From positions 1,098 through 30,577 of the IMG/VR virus record IMGVR_UViG_3300030102_003420: a DNA stretch of 29,480 nt; one strand, written 5' to 3'. Source of the stretch: a virus. Under the pieces are notes generated by a model. The model was not told the origin of the DNA. It saw only the letters and a list, made by a program, of their open reading frames with translations, and did no database searches. Shown here in pieces: positions 537 through 22,983 of the stretch. Within the stretch, counting starts at the first letter, position 1; the number at the start of each line of letters is the position of its first letter. Position numbers and translations under genes: made by a program.

Positions 537-1646
537 ATGGCTGCCATCTCTGAAAACTATTCCGGCGGAACATTCCTGTCGGACCTCGTCTCACGCCCCG
601 AATTCCTTCAGTACACCGCTGAAGGTATTTTCGAGCAATCCAAGTGGGTGCAAAGTGGCATCATCCAGCGCAACGCTGCCCTGGACGCCCGTGCAGGCGG
701 TACTCGCGTGCGCGTGCCTTTCCACGATCCCATCAACCCAACTGAGGAACAGATCCTCAGCAACGCAACCTGGGGCACCGGTGGCGCAGGTTATCTGACT
801 CCTCAAGGCACCTCAGCCGACGAGCAGATCATGACTCTGCTGCACCGTGGCTTCAGCTATGCCGCTGATGACCTCAGCAAACTCGGTTCCGGAGCTGACC
901 CCCTCGCCCACGTGCGTAACCAGCTGTCTGCAGCCATCAACAAGCTTAAGACTTCCACCCTGAAGGCTCAACTGCTGGGTCTGTTCGGTGGTATTTCTGG
1001 CGCTGGCGTCCTTGGACCCAACCAGTTCGACGCTTCCATCGCTGGTACGACTGCCACCGAAGCCAACTACATCTCCGTTGGCAATGTTCTTGAAGCCAAG
1101 AACAAGCTGGGTGAGCGTGGTGAAGAGATCGACACCATCGCAATGCACTCCGCTGTTGCTTATTACCTGCAACAGATCGGAATGCTGACCTTCAGCACCT
1201 CAGCACTGTCCGCTTCCGGCGCAGTGACCTGGGGCGGTGGTGGCGTCGGCGTTGGTGACCCCCAAGTGGCTACCTTCGCCGGAATGCGTGTCGTCATCGA
1301 CGACCAGCTGAGCTACCTGACCGGCGGTACTGCAACCCACGTGGTGAAGTACCCCGTCTACATGTTCAAGTCTGGTGTTGTCTCCGAGGGCATCCAACAG
1401 GATCTGCGCCTCGCCGCCGACCGCAACATCCTGTCCATGCAGGACGTGCTGGCTGTGGATTACCACTACGGCTACCACATCACCGGCACCAAGTGGGCCG
1501 CTGCTGGCGACAACCCCACCAACGCCGCAACCTCCGGCAACCTGGCTAACACCAGCAGCTGGAACCTTGTGTTCGCGACCACCAAGATGGTGCCCATCGT
1601 GCGCCTGCTGGTCAACACCCCCTTTGACACCACCGCTTACGCCTGA
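537..1646 (+). CDS. Major capsid protein
   Basis: A 369-residue protein that forms the icosahedral shell. The call rests on length, position between a scaffold-like gene and head-tail connector genes, and a sequence typical of HK97-fold capsid proteins of the Gp13-like kind: an N-terminal segment with SDLVSRPEF, the G-rich TRVRVPFHDP strand near residue 60, helix-rich middle and a C-terminal PIVRLLVNTPFD strand. Codons end heavily in C (TTC, AAC, ATC, CTG), more than in the neighbouring connector genes, as expected for a very abundant product. A good AGGAG precedes the ATG, two stops in a row (TGATAA) close the gene, and a strong terminator follows 26 bp later. The fold assignment is from memory of the family. 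Confidence 0.85.
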   Translation: MAAISENYSGGTFLSDLVSRPEFLQYTAEGIFEQSKWVQSGIIQRNAALDARAGGTRVRVPFHDPINPTEEQILSNATWGTGGAGYLTPQGTSADEQIMTLLHRGFSYAADDLSKLGSGADPLAHVRNQLSAAINKLKTSTLKAQLLGLFGGISGAGVLGPNQFDASIAGTTATEANYISVGNVLEAKNKLGERGEEIDTIAMHSAVAYYLQQIGMLTFSTSALSASGAVTWGGGGVGVGDPQVATFAGMRVVIDDQLSYLTGGTATHVVKYPVYMFKSGVVSEGIQQDLRLAADRNILSMQDVLAVDYHYGYHITGTKWAAAGDNPTNAATSGNLANTSSWNLVFATTKMVPIVRLLVNTPFDTTAYA

Positions 1647-2018: not shown

Positions 2019-2145
2019 TCCTGCTCACGAAGTAAGCGAAACACAGGCACAAATCGAACTAAACGGTGGCACGGTTTACCACGCTTGCGTCCTACCTAAA
2101 CCAGCACGACGTACCAGAGCTAAACTCAGAAAAAGGTGGTATTAA
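1963..2145 (+). CDS. Small basic protein of unknown function
   Basis: A 60-residue protein starting MDLIRLFITKDNTKRF and ending in a very basic tail RRTRAKLRKRW. The same frame is open further upstream, to 1870, but there it is antisense to the helix-turn-helix gene, so the ATG at 1963 is the likelier start. The stop is only 3 bp before the start of the next head gene, and the protein has an ordinary composition and good charge distribution, which argues that it is real. No family is recognised; a head-associated accessory role is possible from position only. The ATG shares the bases CATG with a possible start of the antisense gene. Confidence 0.5.
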   Translation: MDLIRLFITKDNTKRFIDIPAHEVSETQAQIELNGGTVYHACVLPKPARRTRAKLRKRWY

Positions 2146-4125: not shown

Positions 4126-4872
4126 ATGTCTACCGTTCTTTCGGGCACTTCCGGTGCTCTGTACTATTCCCCCGCTGGTACGTCAGTTACCACGCTTGCC
4201 GCCACCGCGTTTCCCTCCACCGGTTCTGACATTCAAGTCGGAACTTACCTGGGTTTCCGTGTCAACGATCCTGTGACACTCGCCTACCCCGGAGGCGCAA
4301 CCACCACTGGCGCGATTGCTGCAGGTGATTACTTCGTCCTCACCTATGCCGAAGCCACTGGCGTCATGACAGTCAGCTCCACCGTGGGCGGTTCTGCTGA
4401 AACTGCAAGTTCACAGCCCTCTGGGTTCGGCAGCGACTTCGCCAGCATCGAGTACACCGCACCGGAAGCCGTTGGGTCGGTTAGAGAATGGAGCTTTGAG
4501 ATCACACGTTCTGAGATCGATGTCACCACGATTGGTCAAACCACTGGGGGAACCGTACCTTTCCGTGCCTACATCTCTAGCTTTGCTGACGGTTCTGGTT
4601 CGGCAACGGTCTACACCACCGACGATGACAGTAATATCTCCAGCCGTCTGATCGAAGACGTTATCGAGACGTCTCAGTCTGGTGCGACGATGAAGCTCTA
4701 CATCGATCGCGTGTTGGTCAGTGGCACCGTGAACGACACCCAAAGCCGTTCCATCGAAGTTCCCGTCGTGCTGACTTCTGCCAGCCTGTCGGTCAACCCC
4801 GACGATGGTCAAAGTGTTGAGATCGCGTTCCGTCCCAGCGCTGCACCCACCTTCGACCTCAGCAAGTCCTGA
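4126..4872 (+). CDS. Major tail tube protein
   Basis: 248 residues forming the stacked rings of the tail tube. The C-terminal two thirds have the tail tube pattern: VREWSFEITRSEIDVTTIG, then GSGSATVYTTDD, a DRVLVSG segment and SIEVPVVLTSASLSV. The N-terminal third carries an extra beta domain (around residues 30-100). Codon use is strongly biased to C-ending codons, as in the capsid gene and unlike the adjacent tape measure gene, in line with high expression. The stop pair TGATAA is followed 25 bp later by a strong terminator. Two later genes, at 14240 and 14671, look like paralogues of it. Confidence 0.8.
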   Translation: MSTVLSGTSGALYYSPAGTSVTTLAATAFPSTGSDIQVGTYLGFRVNDPVTLAYPGGATTTGAIAAGDYFVLTYAEATGVMTVSSTVGGSAETASSQPSGFGSDFASIEYTAPEAVGSVREWSFEITRSEIDVTTIGQTTGGTVPFRAYISSFADGSGSATVYTTDDDSNISSRLIEDVIETSQSGATMKLYIDRVLVSGTVNDTQSRSIEVPVVLTSASLSVNPDDGQSVEIAFRPSAAPTFDLSKS

Positions 4873-4898
4873 TAAGATTGCTACTGAACAGCAGAGCG

Positions 4899-4926
4899 GC
4901 CCCGTTTCGACGGGGCTTTTTTTATT
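4899..4926 (+). terminator. Intrinsic terminator after the tail tube gene
   Basis: A perfect 7-bp stem GCCCCGT / ACGGGGC with a TTCG tetraloop, an exceptionally stable hairpin, is followed by seven T. It acts on the + strand and separates the tail tube gene from the chaperone and tape measure genes. Confidence 0.95.
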
Positions 4927-4963: not shown

Positions 4964-5317
4964 ATGCCTGCCGCCCTTCGCGCTATTGACCGTCTCCGCA
5001 AAGCCGCGAATCTGGAGCCCATCCGTAAAGAAGTTGAGCTTTCAGATGGCACCACATTTGAGTTGTGGATGACTCCGCTGACCATGGCAGAGCGCGAGCG
5101 TGCGCAACGCCTCGCAAAGTCCGACGACGCTGGTGCGTTTGCTCTGCAGCTTCTGATTGCCAAAGCACTCGACGAGAACGGCAAGAAGCTGTTCGCCCCT
5201 GGAGAGGTGGACATCTTGAAGAACGACGTTAAGGATAAAGACCTGCAGACGTTAATGCTCGCCATCCTGACCGACGAAGACGAGAGTGAAGTTGACATGA
5301 AAAGCTCTGCAGAGTGA
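4964..5317 (+). CDS. Tail assembly chaperone, G-type product
   Basis: 117 residues. The sequence (EVELSDGTTFELWMTPLTM, AERERAQRLAK, then an acidic end DEDESEVDMKSSAE) and its position between tail tube and tape measure genes fit the lambda gpG-like chaperone, which binds the tape measure protein during tail assembly and is absent from the virion. An ORF in another frame follows without its own good start and looks like the T extension, so a minority of ribosomes probably shift frame near 5300 to make a longer GT product. No clear Shine-Dalgarno precedes the ATG. Confidence 0.75.
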   Translation: MPAALRAIDRLRKAANLEPIRKEVELSDGTTFELWMTPLTMAERERAQRLAKSDDAGAFALQLLIAKALDENGKKLFAPGEVDILKNDVKDKDLQTLMLAILTDEDESEVDMKSSAE

Positions 5318-5495
5318 GATTAAGCGGGATCCCTCTCTGCAGTTTCAATTTTTTCTGGCCCTCGAACTGAAGATGACGCTTAGCGAACTTCAGTCACGTA
5401 TGACAGAGGATGAACTCATGGGCTGGAACGCTTACTACGCGCTTCGTGCTGAGGAGCAGGAAAAGGCGCACCGTGAAGCAAAACGCCGCCGCTAA
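5301..5495 (+). CDS. Tail assembly chaperone, frameshifted T-type extension
   Basis: This frame opens after a TGA at 5298 and runs to TAA at 5493-5495. It encodes KALQSEIKRDPSLQFQFFLAL, ELKMTLSELQSRMT and MGWNAYYALRAEEQEKA, which has the W-x-x-YY-x-L-R pattern of the T half of GT chaperones. It overlaps the end of the G frame by only 14 bases, so the shift must happen between about 5298 and 5314. The change from the G frame is +1 (or -2). AAAAGC at 5300-5305 lets a lysine tRNA re-pair perfectly after a +1 slip (AAA to AAA). An internal ATG at 5370 could also start a shorter product, but that would cut the domain. Confidence 0.65.
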   Translation, partial: KALQSEIKRDPSLQFQFFLALELKMTLSELQSRMTEDELMGWNAYYALRAEEQEKAHREAKRRR

Positions 5496-5522
5496 ACTTA
5501 GGGATATTGACGAGCGCAGGTC

Positions 5523-8500
5523 GTGACTTATAGAGCTGATATTCAAATCGGCGTCAAAGGCGCTAAACAGCTAGAGGATTTTAAGAAAAAGGTAGAAGAG
5601 CTGTCTAAAAAAATTGATAGAGTAAATAAACAAGAAATTCACGGTACAAAACAAGTAACAAGCATTAACGAATTTAATGCGGCACTTACAAAATCTATTG
5701 AAAACTTAAATAAAACACGTATGAGTTTAGATGCAGCGGGGAAAGCTACTGGAAACTACAAAAAGGCTATTGATCAATACGTTACAGCTCTAGGTAGATC
5801 AAACGAACGCCAAGCCCAGCAAAACAATCTTATACAAGAGGAAATCCGGCTGAGGCAGCAGGCTGCACGGGTAGCGAAGCTTCAAGCAGCAGGTATTAAG
5901 GAAGTTACTCAGTACGCGGGTCCTATTGGTCCTGGACCTGCGTCACCTACAGCACTTTCATCACCACTACCCCCAAGATCTAGGTTTTTTGGTGGTAAGC
6001 AATACTCCGGTCCTATTGGTCCTGGGCCTGTATCAGCTACAGCACTTTCATCACCACTACCCGCAAGATCTAGATTTTTCGGTGGTAAGCAATACTCCGG
6101 TCCTATTGGTCCTGGACCTGTATCACCCACGGCACTGTCATCACCGTTACCCGCTTTTATCGGCCCACGTCAAGCTACATCTTCGCAGCAGCAGGCTGCT
6201 ATTACGCAGGCAGCGAAGGAAATGAAGGATGTTTACGCATCCCTAGACAAAATACAAGAGAAACGACTTCGGCAACTTGCTGATGAGTCGCAGTTTTTGG
6301 GTGGTACTAGGACAAAGCTTCACGATATTAAAAAACTAACTGAAAAAATCGGCAAAGGCACACCTATAGCACCAAAGCGGATATTAGGTGAAACGCAGTT
6401 TGATAGGCCTATAGGGCCAGAAACAGCACAAAGAGCAGGATTGAAAAAAGGGCTCAGCCAGTTTGCGGACTTTGGTTTGGGCGCTGGCTTCCCGCTGTTG
6501 TTTGGCGGTGGTGCGGGTCAAGTTGCTGGCGGCGGCATCGGTACTGCACTCGGTAAATCACTGGGTCTTGCGTCCCAAGCTGTTTTCGGTTTGCAGATTG
6601 CCTTCTCTGCTGTTGGCGATCAAATCGAGCAAGCAATCCGTCGCATCGTCGAGATGCAGGGTGCGATTAAAAGCCTCGACATGGATCGCCTTGCGAAGAG
6701 CACGCTTTACGTCGATCAAAATCTTCGCGGTGCCGTAGACAGCCTTGTGAAGGCTGCTCAATACGCCGACGCCTACGCATTGGCTACCGCAGAGGCTGCA
6801 ATGCAGACTGGACTTATCGGCAGTCAACAAGAGAACATCGCTGGAACGGCTAACTACTTAGGTAATGCCTGGAACCGTCTAGTTACCTCCGGCTCCGCAT
6901 TTCTTTCGATTGTGGGCTCACCGCTTGCAGCCGCTTTAGGTGGCGTCGTTGATCTCATCGGTCTTTCAGTGAAGGGGATCAATATGCTGCTCTCCGGTTT
7001 TGGTGAGTTAATCACCCGAATTCCTGGTGTGAACCAGGGGTTAGACCTTATTAAGGAGGCTAATTATCAGATAACAGAAGAACAGGCAAAACAGCTCGCG
7101 CAGGCAGACCAACGAACAGGTTCACTTCTCAGGGAAGCAGCACTGGACCAACAGATTTTAGATCTTGAAAAACAGCGTGTGGGCGTTGTTGATTCTTCTA
7201 TCCCTGGAGCGCAGCTTCGCGCTGATTTAAAAGATGCAGAGATTGATCTAGGGATAAAGAACTTACAGATTGAGGACGACCTGATTAGTAAGAAAGAAGA
7301 TATAAACAAAAAGTATGCTGGTTTAATGAAATTAAGAGGTAATGATCTGAAGACGGCTAAAAGCTTGCGGGGTATAGAACTTAGTCTGGCTGAAGGTACA
7401 GCTAGACGTCGAAAAGAAGAAGCTCAAGTAAACAACGAACGAGCAGTAGGCAAGGCTGAGTTAGCCGAACAAAATAGGCTTAAGGACGAAGCAATTAAAC
7501 GGCAAAAGAAAATCCAAAAAATAAACGAGCAAATCAATGAAACTCACCAAGAACGAATCAAGTTAATGGAACAGGCGGCACGCAGTCAAATAGAAACATT
7601 GACAAACGCTTTGTCACTTGCAGAGGCACGTAACACCACCGAAAAACAACTTCTAAGCAATCAAATTAAGCAAGCTGAAATCCTAGGAAATACCAGTAAA
7701 GTTTATAGGCTGAAGAATGAGCTTGCCAAACTCGATTACAATATTTCAGTTCAAAGAATCAATACAGAAGTTCGTAAACTTCAAATCGCTAAACAAGTAG
7801 CCGAAGCCAAGCGATCCGAGCTGCAAGTCGCCTTGGCGCTTGTAGATGCAGAAAGTGAACAAGCAAAGAAATTAAGGCATGCCCTTGAATTGCAAGCTCA
7901 AGTCGTCAATCAAGCAAGAGTAAATCTAAGTGTCGGCAGGGAAATTGCGAAGGAGCAACTTAAAAATGCCCAAGCCATTAAAGAAGGCGCAATAGAAGCA
8001 AATAGACTTGCAAACCATATGGAACGAACGAATCAAAATATTGCAAATGCACGAAATAATGCGAGGGGACTAAAAGCTGAGCTTGCATCCGCATCAAGCA
8101 ATGCGGACGGAGTTAGTAGTTCAATGAGAAGTACTGGATCAAGCACCATAACAGTTAGTACTGGGCTGTATGGCATAACTAGAGAGCTTGAAAAACAAAA
8201 AGAAATAAGGGAAAGCGGTTTGTCCGCAGAGGCTTATGAGATGAGAGAGCTAATCAAAAAATATGATTACGACATTAGGTATAAAGCACTGAGAAACGAA
8301 CACGGACGAATAATGAACATTGGTATGATCAACATGCTTAGAAAAGGAAGGGCCCTTGCAGATGAGAGACTTAAGGAATTAATTCAAGAAAGTTTGACGC
8401 GAGAAAATGTTGAAGCCGCAATACGAAGTGAAAAGCAAGTATTTTCTGGAATGAATATAAGCCGTGCTGCACAAAGAGTTGGTATGCAAAGTTATTCAAC

Positions 8501-15447: not shown

Positions 15448-15494
15448 TTGCTGCGCTGAAATTACTGTTGTGTCAGGACCGATAGAATAGTTTT

Positions 15495-15508: not shown

Positions 15509-15847
15509 ATGGCCGTCCGACCTGGAACATACAACATACTTCTGCAGCGTCGGGCAGACTACGACGTGCAGCTTGTGTTCACCGACAGCAATGATGCGGC
15601 AATCGACTTGACTGGCTGGACCGTCACTGCACAAGCTTGGAATAAGGCACGCACCACCAAGTCCGCAGATTTTGGCATCACCTATACAAATCGGGCAGGC
15701 GGTGTTGTCAACATTAGTTTGACTGACACGCAAACAACGACATTTCCCGATGAACTGTATTACGACGTTTTGCTAGAAGACACATCAGGTCTAAAAGAGT
15801 ATTACTTAGAAGGCGTTATCTACGTTTCTGAGGGGTACACAGCATGA
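15509..15847 (+). CDS. BppU N-terminal-like baseplate/fibre adaptor
   Basis: 112 residues with the pattern common in small proteins next to phage fibres: RRADYDVQLVFTD, IDLTGWTVTAQAW, GVVNISLTDTQTTTFPDELY and YDVLLEDTSGLKEYYLEG. This is an Ig-like beta sandwich that in BppU-type proteins anchors receptor-binding parts to the tail tip. It has the best ribosome binding site of the late region and overlaps the next gene by four bases (ATGA). The role is inferred from family and place. Confidence 0.65.
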   Translation: MAVRPGTYNILLQRRADYDVQLVFTDSNDAAIDLTGWTVTAQAWNKARTTKSADFGITYTNRAGGVVNISLTDTQTTTFPDELYYDVLLEDTSGLKEYYLEGVIYVSEGYTA

Positions 15848-21134: not shown

Positions 21135-21398
21135 CTAAGACAACTCGTCAACAGGGACAATCTCGATTTGCTTACGGCTTTGTTTGTATGTGCCCCACCG
21201 TGGGATGCGGAGCGCATACTTAGCTGGATCAATACTGTGTTCCGGGTACTGGAGAGTGTTCCACTTCCACTCACAGTCGTCGCACATCCTGCTTCGAACA
21301 ATACGGCCATCTGTGGTGTAGTAGGTGTTTTTAACCCAACTGACTTTGTTGCCGCACCTTGGGCAGGCAGGCGAAGGGTAGTTAACTCGTGGGGGCAT
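21135..21398 (-). CDS. Zinc-ribbon protein, NrdR-like N-terminal type
   Basis: 87 residues. CPRCG at 12-16 and CDDC at 39-42 form a four-cysteine zinc ribbon, with the spacing and layout (TTDGRIVRSRMCDDC) of the N-terminal DNA-binding zinc ribbon of NrdR-type regulators. The ATP-cone half of NrdR is absent; instead there is a basic C-terminus. It probably binds DNA or RNA. The gene starts within the stop of the sigma factor gene (TGATG), so the two are translated together, which suggests joint control of transcription. The link to NrdR is structural resemblance only. Confidence 0.65.
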   Translation of the reverse strand: MPPRVNYPSPACPRCGNKVSWVKNTYYTTDGRIVRSRMCDDCEWKWNTLQYPEHSIDPAKYALRIPRWGTYKQSRKQIEIVPVDELS

Positions 21399-22249
21399 CA
21401 GATTCGATCAACAGTGCGGAAGTACACCCGCAACTTGCGGACAGAGCCATGGAAAATGTTGCGAGTGCGCTCCCGCGAAATTCCCAGCTCTTTAGAAATT
21501 GCCTGGAACGTCATCGGCGGTTGCGTACCAAGGCCAAGGGAGCACTCAACCACATACCTCTCCCTGGGCTCCAGCTTGCAGAGAATGCTCTCCACTTTTT
21601 CAAGATCAATACCCCACGAGACTTCGTCAAATACATCTACGTCAGAAGAAACGCTATCGATAAGCATCACGTCGTCATCTGTACTTTTGACACGGGCGTC
21701 AAGGCTTATGGCGTCGTTAGATCTATCCAAGTATTCTTGCAACCGCGACGGACTGATCTTGCAGTATTCAGCGCACTCTTCGATGGTGGGTTTGCGGTGG
21801 TGCGTATTCTCAAAAATCGGAGTCCAGTTGCGCAGCTTAGTCAAAAGCTCAACCGCGTGGGACGGCAACCGGATAACGCGATCATAGGTTGCCAAGTAAC
21901 GTGTAATACTTTGCCTAATCCACCAGTACACGTAAGTTGAAAGCGCATAACCACGCTCTGGATCAAACTTTTTAACGCCATGAGCGAGACCCATCGTGCC
22001 TTCCTGCACCAAATCAGAAAGCTCACTGCGCTTGCACTTATTTGTGTACCGCTTGGCAATGGAAACCACCAAGCGCAAATTACAGTTGACCAATTTCTGG
22101 TACGCTCGCTCCCCCCGCTTGATGATTCGCGGCGAGGGGTTTTCACCCTCGATCCAGTCTTTTACCTGACGCGCCAAGATGATTTCCTGGTCTTTGGTGA
22201 GCAGCGGATACCTACCGATGTCTCTTAAGTATGCGCTAAAAGTATCCAT
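21398..22249 (-). CDS. Phage-encoded sigma-70 factor
   Basis: 283 residues that would direct RNA polymerase to chosen promoters. Region 1.2 is DTFSAYLRDIGRYPLLT; region 2 runs from about residue 52 (NCNLRLVVSIAKRYT) through LVQEGTMGL and FDPERGYALSTYVYWWIRQS to about 135. WWIRQSITR (109-117) keeps the Gln and Thr that read the -10 box in primary sigma factors. Region 3 follows to about 190, and region 4 has a helix-turn-helix at 247-268 (FQAISKELGISRERTRNIF) that keeps RERxR. Region 1.1 is absent. The form is that of cyanobacterial group 1/2 factors. It is unlike extracytoplasmic-function factors, which lack region 3. The promoter targets are unknown. The gene sits between a 64-residue protein (1 bp gap) and the zinc-ribbon gene. 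Confidence 0.92.
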   Translation of the reverse strand: MDTFSAYLRDIGRYPLLTKDQEIILARQVKDWIEGENPSPRIIKRGERAYQKLVNCNLRLVVSIAKRYTNKCKRSELSDLVQEGTMGLAHGVKKFDPERGYALSTYVYWWIRQSITRYLATYDRVIRLPSHAVELLTKLRNWTPIFENTHHRKPTIEECAEYCKISPSRLQEYLDRSNDAISLDARVKSTDDDVMLIDSVSSDVDVFDEVSWGIDLEKVESILCKLEPRERYVVECSLGLGTQPPMTFQAISKELGISRERTRNIFHGSVRKLRVYFRTVDRI

Positions 22250-22250
22250 T

Positions 22251-22445
22251 TCAATTACTTACTTCGATCACTGAAGGTACTTGACCAATGCTTCCGCTAA
22301 CTGCTTGAGCCACAGCCAACGCTTTTTCAAGCGTGACGTAAGAGCAGGCATCTTCAGCATTTTTCGTGAGCATAATCCCGCTGCCAGTTGCCTCGTAGCA
22401 CGCAGCAAGAAACGTGTCGTTTTGAATCAAAAGAGCGTACCGCAT
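22251..22445 (-). CDS. Small hypothetical protein leading the sigma operon
   Basis: 64 residues: MRYALLIQNDTFLAACYEAT, then GIMLTKNAEDACSYVTLEKA and a last part VAQAVSGSIGQVPSVIEV. It has a small alpha-beta pattern and no recognised family. It ends one base before the sigma factor start and is preceded by a hairpin abutting its ATG and a possible promoter, so it appears to be the first gene of the regulatory cassette. A function in controlling the sigma factor (for example an anti-sigma role) is possible from position only. Confidence 0.6.
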   Translation of the reverse strand: MRYALLIQNDTFLAACYEATGSGIMLTKNAEDACSYVTLEKALAVAQAVSGSIGQVPSVIEVSN

Positions 22446-22501: not shown

Positions 22502-22765
22502 TCAGGAGTCTTTGATTTCTTTTTTGAGTCTCGCCCTGCCCTCAACACGGCGCTGGATCGACTCGTCCCACACCTTCTTATCCGCCTCAAAAGCCTCCTT
22601 GTACTCATCTGCCGGAACACAAAGCTCCAACTGCTTGTAGACCATGTCTCGAATCCAAGCGGTGGGACGTACTTTCTGCGACTCAGCCAACTGCATCAAC
22701 AACTGAGCACGATTCGGATCCAGCAAAATCTGCAGGTACGTCTTATTGCCGTGCCGGATCGCCAT
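22502..22765 (-). CDS. Ribbon-helix-helix DNA-binding protein (candidate)
   Basis: 87 residues from the ATG at 22765; a TTG one codon earlier is also in frame. The N-terminal half has the order strand-helix-helix: KTYLQILLD, PNRAQLLMQLAESQ, then RPTAWIRDMVYKQLEL, as in Arc/CopG-type proteins, which dimerise and bind DNA through the strand. The rest is a charged helix (KKVWDESIQRRVEGRARLKK). It is likely a phage repressor or regulator. AAGG lies close before the start. It is the gene just upstream of the sigma cassette on the same strand. Confidence 0.6.
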   Translation of the reverse strand: MAIRHGNKTYLQILLDPNRAQLLMQLAESQKVRPTAWIRDMVYKQLELCVPADEYKEAFEADKKVWDESIQRRVEGRARLKKEIKDS

Positions 22766-22803
22766 CAACCTTACTCTTTAGTACAGCGCAGTCTAACAAT
22801 GTG

Positions 22804-22983
22804 CTACCAGTTAATTGAATCATCCACATGCTTCCGCCACCCCTGCGCCTGAGACTTACGAGACTCACGCCGTTGCTTAGTGCAACCTTCTCGTATGTGC
22901 CTGGCACCTTCTAAAAATTCAGCCGCACGTTGTAGATCCGCTGTGGTGGCACGTTTGATTTCGTGCTGCAGATACCGCAGCAT
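22804..22983 (-). CDS. Small basic helical protein
   Basis: 59 residues from ATG at 22983: MLRYLQHEIKRATTADLQRA, AEFLEGARHIREG, then a basic tail KQRRESRKSQAQGWRKH. This start is chosen over the longer frame (to 23019) because GGGAGGG lies at the right distance upstream, a strong Shine-Dalgarno. The family is not recognised; charge suggests nucleic acid binding. The start lies inside the 3' part of the preceding ORF in another frame. Confidence 0.6.
   Translation of the reverse strand: MLRYLQHEIKRATTADLQRAAEFLEGARHIREGCTKQRRESRKSQAQGWRKHVDDSINW

Follow-up and report, generated by a model that had tools for sequence, protein, structure and literature searches.

The window, by which we mean the whole 29,480-nucleotide stretch analysed here (29.5 kb of a 30.6-kb viral record that is itself a fragment), encodes a group-2-like sigma-70 factor flanked by small genes on the same strand (Table 1). 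The sequence-only reading had placed a sigma gene over this interval and left out its strand; the ORF is real and complete, the plus-strand frame of the same interval contains internal stops, and the coding strand is minus. The claim that regions 1.2, 2, 3 and 4 are all present was borne out as well, since the four Pfam domains stand in this order and each scores above its cut-off (43.9, 69.9, 35 and 34.1 bits, respectively). T4 gp55 and the SPO1-type phage sigma factors are small and divergent with a reduced domain set, and assignment of the window protein to that type was ruled out by its full set of domains. The N terminus of the protein is region 1.2 and the region 1.1 extension is absent; the factor was therefore classed as group-2-like rather than as a primary (group 1) sigma. 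The best NCBIfam family was 'Sig70-cyanoRpoD' (TIGR02997, cyanobacterial RpoD/SigA), matched at 253.5 bits (E 2.5e-75), which is below the curated cut-off of 384.5 bits. SigA chains in the PDB, cyanobacterial and other, matched the protein with E values down to 2e-47, and sigma-A chains were also the best Foldseek matches of an AlphaFold model of moderate confidence (mean pLDDT 71.5) built on an alignment of the window protein and related viral loci only. Against four relatives of 92-93% identity, dN/dS was 0.04-0.10 (about 0.05), so that the gene is under purifying selection and its function is maintained in the virus.

Table 1 Sigma gene, neighbouring genes, capsid gene and candidate promoter elements in the window
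Feature	Position	Strand	Remarks
Group-2-like sigma-70 factor, 283 aa, regions 1.2/2/3/4, without region 1.1	21398..22249	minus	ATG ORF, Pfam
87-aa protein, C-x2-C/C-x2-C zinc ribbon of NrdR type	21135..21398	minus	ATG overlaps sigma stop codon by one base
64-aa protein, no known family, directly upstream of sigma	22251..22445	minus	Present in 64/75 relatives
87-aa small basic protein, first cassette gene	22502..22765	minus	Present in 67/75 relatives
Promoter-like element GGTAGCACATTGTTAGACT (TG-n-TAGACT, extended -10 type) ahead of cassette	22790..22808	minus	Conserved across loci
Late-arm -10-like CTAAACT	2120..2126	+	29 nt upstream of gene at 2149
Late-arm -10-like CTAAACT	5492..5498	+	31 nt upstream of tape-measure-like gene at 5523
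Late-arm -10-like TAGAAT	15483..15488	+	26 nt upstream of gene at 15509
Major capsid protein	537-1646	+	Closest Marine virus AG-345-A17 (48%), cyanophage S-2L (42%)

Residues of the window protein were numbered as in E. coli sigma-70 and mapped through an enterobacterial RpoD. The mapping upheld the earlier claim that the promoter-reading residues (WWIRQSITR and RERxR) are kept, the exceptions being F427L and Q589N. Both WWIRQSITR and RERTR occur in the protein, which retains D403, Q406, E407, Y425, T429, Y430, W433, W434, Q437, T440, H455 and E458 and, in region 4.2, R584, E585, R586 and R588. Across 67 viral relatives the core-binding residues D403, Q406 and E407 were invariant, as were Y430, W433, W434, Q437, E458, R584, E585 and R588; T440, H455 and R586 varied in some of them. 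The listed region 2 contacts are those of E. coli sigma-70 apart from F427, which is replaced by L throughout the window clade. At position 589, Q is replaced by N, the commonest residue there among the sampled cellular factors, mostly cyanobacterial, and the idea that this substitution makes region 4.2 aberrant was dropped because N is frequent at this position in host group-2 factors. The order of its domains and the residues with which it would read promoters, including N at 589, are those of cyanobacterial group 2 sigma factors (TIGR02997); it is about 40% identical to them, about 30 residues shorter in the alignment and below the family cut-off.

The sigma gene sits in a conserved cassette of this uncultured virus group, newly described here, that runs from a small basic protein through a 64-aa protein and sigma to an NrdR-like zinc ribbon. 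The slot behind sigma holds a zinc ribbon, of differing types, in 57 of the 64 relatives with enough sequence; many of the relatives are closely akin to each other, so that neither this count nor those in Table 1 represent independent cases. The window ribbon scored 25.8 bits against PF22811, just below the cut-off of 27.2, and most of the relatives' ribbons tested fell in or near this family, several above the cut-off and one also near Ogr_Delta. The protein carries the same kind of four-cysteine ribbon as phage Ogr/Delta and cellular NrdR proteins; it differs from them in lacking an ATP-cone and in its second cysteine pair (C-x2-C). The ribbon (21135-21398, compared across loci L006-L078) was seen to be swapped for another type even at 88% sigma identity (e.g., L012), with the slot kept. 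Some ribbon versions (L019 and L022) have an extra C-terminal segment, which is HTH-like by Pfam in L019. In several relatives (L282-L304, records G406-G412) a ThyX-like thymidylate synthase gene lies behind the sigma/zinc-ribbon pair, a position at which the window has no ThyX.

The 64-aa protein (64-70 aa across relatives) shows an EDACSYVT motif and has a predicted beta-beta-beta-alpha-beta fold (pLDDT 85). Its identification with a known fold, such as that of an anti-sigma factor, was rejected, as no PDB match fell below E 1. It had no match in the phage records searched, and none in the Synechococcus lacustris family (201 genomes, in a search that had no positive control). The small basic protein looks ribbon-helix-helix-like by eye only, Pfam giving no support for this fold.

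The setting of the cassette was compared in 12 records (30-48 kb, that of the window included) picked for carrying the sigma gene. In all 12, the structural and lysis genes form an arm on one strand, and the replication genes (helicase/primase and DNA polymerase A) form a leftward arm on the other; in 12/12 longer relatives sigma occupies one syntenic place, in the distal replication arm, facing endolysin and HNH genes. The same arrangement was found in S-CBS1, S-CBS3, KBS-S-2A and S-LBS1. Neither a terminase nor a portal gene was identified within the window, and no further transcription machinery was seen among the examined ORFs and family matches. Because of the matches of the capsid protein, to the viruses named in Table 1 and, at about 30%, to Prochlorococcus/Synechococcus phages, the host is likely to be a cyanobacterium. 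Cyanophage S-2L is the phage with 2-aminoadenine DNA; of its own it carries no more than a short 'sigma 70' ORF.

Among cyanosiphoviruses a full-length sigma factor is not the rarity that the sequence-only reading expected it to be in phages: complete group-2 factors have been annotated in them since 2009, and the gene is of this known type. Sigma factors were counted in 65 of 153 cyanophage genomes in a review (PMC10452541). P-SS2 carries one group 2 and one group 3 sigma factor, and its type II sigma (ORF113) was predicted to read sigma-70 promoters (PMC2784084). An RpoD-like sigma was described in KBS2A (KBS-S-2A) (PMC3751600), and a divergent RpoD in S-LBS1, S-CBS1 and S-CBS3 (PMC6157547). 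In our tblastn search of phage records, the best annotated cyanophage matches were S-CBS3, S-CBS1, KBS-S-2A, S-LBS1 and Microcystis phage MaAM05. The RpsD4 proteins of S-CBS3 and S-CBS1, annotated 'group 2 RNA polymerase sigma factor', are likewise full-length and group-2-like, and their genes close the replication arm at its distal end and face endolysin; however, they are 37-38% identical to the window sigma and belong to another branch of the tree. The RpoD-like factors of KBS-S-2A and S-LBS1 are of the same type and are encoded in a similar place beside endolysin, but they are 36-41% identical, partly over partial length. Pattern searches found no cassette neighbours, the zinc ribbon and 64-aa protein among them, in any of these four phages. 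P-SS2 ORF113 and the RpoD of S-CBS2 are also phage-encoded group-2 factors, though very divergent, on long branches and from larger phages.

Relatives of the window sigma proved numerous among viral contigs. A first scan kept 80 loci, most of them 50-93% identical over the matched segment, and a wider alignment-based scan confirmed at least 261 relatives among 600 candidate stretches. The best cellular matches reached about 40% identity over the full length, and regions 2-4 were at most 44% identical to any of 400 genomes from the family of a Synechococcus lacustris genome. A tree of 77 rows grouped the window sigma with viral sequences only, in a set of 25 rows (SH-aLRT 100) that excluded every cellular cyanobacterial factor. 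When viral sequences of greater distance were added, the set around it had 20 rows, again all viral (SH-aLRT 90, unstarred), with the group 1/2 cellular factors mostly apart; the viral sigmas form several branches around the cellular ones, and support is weak along the long deep branches. A tree constrained to unite the window clade with picocyanobacterial group-2 factors was worse by 70 log-likelihood units (p-AU 0.0013), and recent capture of such a factor was rejected on this ground. The sequence-only reading had proposed capture from a cyanobacterium, with a phylogeny against the host sigma groups as the check and a phage-only clade as the contrary outcome; a virus-only clade is what the trees returned, and as a recent event the capture was not borne out. 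The factor is placed on an old branch made up of viral sequences alone and was not lately taken from the host; a far more ancient capture may lie behind it. The gene is a long-established and stable component of the viral genome, not one newly acquired from a host.

Two kinds of candidate promoter element were found. The element ahead of the cassette is unique in the window and had no chance match in shuffles, and a close pattern occurs in over 50 loci (some overlapping), generally at a fixed spacing ahead of sigma. The initial bases of the window element still belong to the small ORF that precedes it, which leaves CACAnTGnTAGACT, an extended -10 form, as the conserved noncoding part. In the late arm, TAGAAT was the most enriched gap hexamer (8 of 41 gaps versus 0.77 expected). 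The pattern CTA[AG]A[AC]T, found and counted post hoc on the same 12 genomes, occurred 11 times in 42 non-redundant late-arm gaps versus 0.7 in shuffles (maximum 6); it was absent from the antisense orientation and from early gaps, and its density in coding sequence was 0.04/kb. The start codon usually follows at a distance of 27-48 nt. Several late sites overlap stop codons; TAG is followed by AAT at 5 of 15 TAG stops before late gaps, compared with 6 of 61 over all ORFs. In the other loci the pattern was no commoner than in shuffles and mostly marked the site before the sigma cassette, and strict late specificity was for this reason not independently confirmed. No -35 element was enriched over shuffles before the late genes. 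A wide-window EM motif search returned coding-bias motifs only, except for one orthologous early element. Some early gaps contain TGnTACnnT instead, which is also host-like, and TAGAAT and TAGACT fit ordinary host sigma-70 -10 sequences as well.

What the analysis showed directly is the set of domains, the kept residues, the purifying selection, the placement among viruses alone, the synteny and the conservation of the cassette. In our main reading, to which we give a probability of roughly 60%, a group-2-type sigma of viral lineage would take the host core polymerase to phage promoters whose -10 element has the form TAnnnT, probably at middle-to-late times. The factor is predicted to bind the core RNA polymerase of the host, most likely a cyanobacterial one, and would direct it to these promoters. 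Its expression would come both from the leftward replication operon, of which it is a distal gene, and from a sub-operon promoter of its own, and with this placing it would probably act middle-to-late. It may then turn on the rightward structural/lysis arm, and possibly its own cassette, with the zinc-ribbon, 64-aa and small basic proteins as likely co-regulators. A more specific form of this scheme would make the cassette a self-controlled transcription switch, in which sigma drives both the TAGACT promoter of its cassette and the late CTA[AG]A[AC]T promoters, the latter lacking a -35 element, and the zinc ribbon or the 64-aa protein serves as co-activator or anti-sigma; this form we consider doubtful.

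Host genes might instead be the main target of the factor. It would then be the product of a captured cyanobacterial gene with an auxiliary regulatory role, and would reprogramme metabolism or stress responses for the phage. Its promoter-reading residues are host-like, and, as summarised in a review (PMC10452541), Sawa et al. 2019 expressed S-CBS2 RpoD and S-CBS3 RpsD4 in S. elongatus PCC 7942, which enhanced growth and raised acetyl-CoA. However, effects of over-expression do not reveal the role of a factor during infection, the AU test rejected recent capture, and all 12 longer relatives examined carry the gene at the same syntenic core position. We judge a role mainly on host genes to be unlikely.

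Timing could also differ from our main reading, with sigma serving early/middle transcription of the replication arm or entering the host holoenzyme pool, and the late arm being read by host sigma and other phage regulators. This would agree with the match of the late-arm elements to generic host -10 sequences, with the different, host-like TGnTACnnT of some early-arm gaps, and with the location of the cassette inside the leftward arm. Yet within that arm sigma is a distal gene, and CTA[AG]A[AC]T was enriched only in the late-arm gaps among the 12 genomes, which makes this arrangement quite improbable. That a picocyanobacterial group-2 sigma was recently captured by horizontal transfer is barely credible: the best NCBIfam family is cyanobacterial RpoD/SigA and host group-2 factors are collinear with the protein, but identity across the 400 genomes of the Synechococcus lacustris family is at most about 40-44%, and both the virus-only clade and the AU test oppose it.

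With the present gene, a well-sampled uncultured aquatic virus group joins the cyanosiphoviruses that carry a full sigma factor of their own, and the elements and cassette proteins in Table 1 offer candidate promoters and partners for how such phages, which have no polymerase of their own, time their transcription. A terminator-like hairpin with a T-run lies at about 4893-4925 on the plus strand, after the gene ending at 4872. Between this hairpin and position 4964 there is a TACAGT-type promoter-like sequence, and a similar arrangement occurs in relatives.
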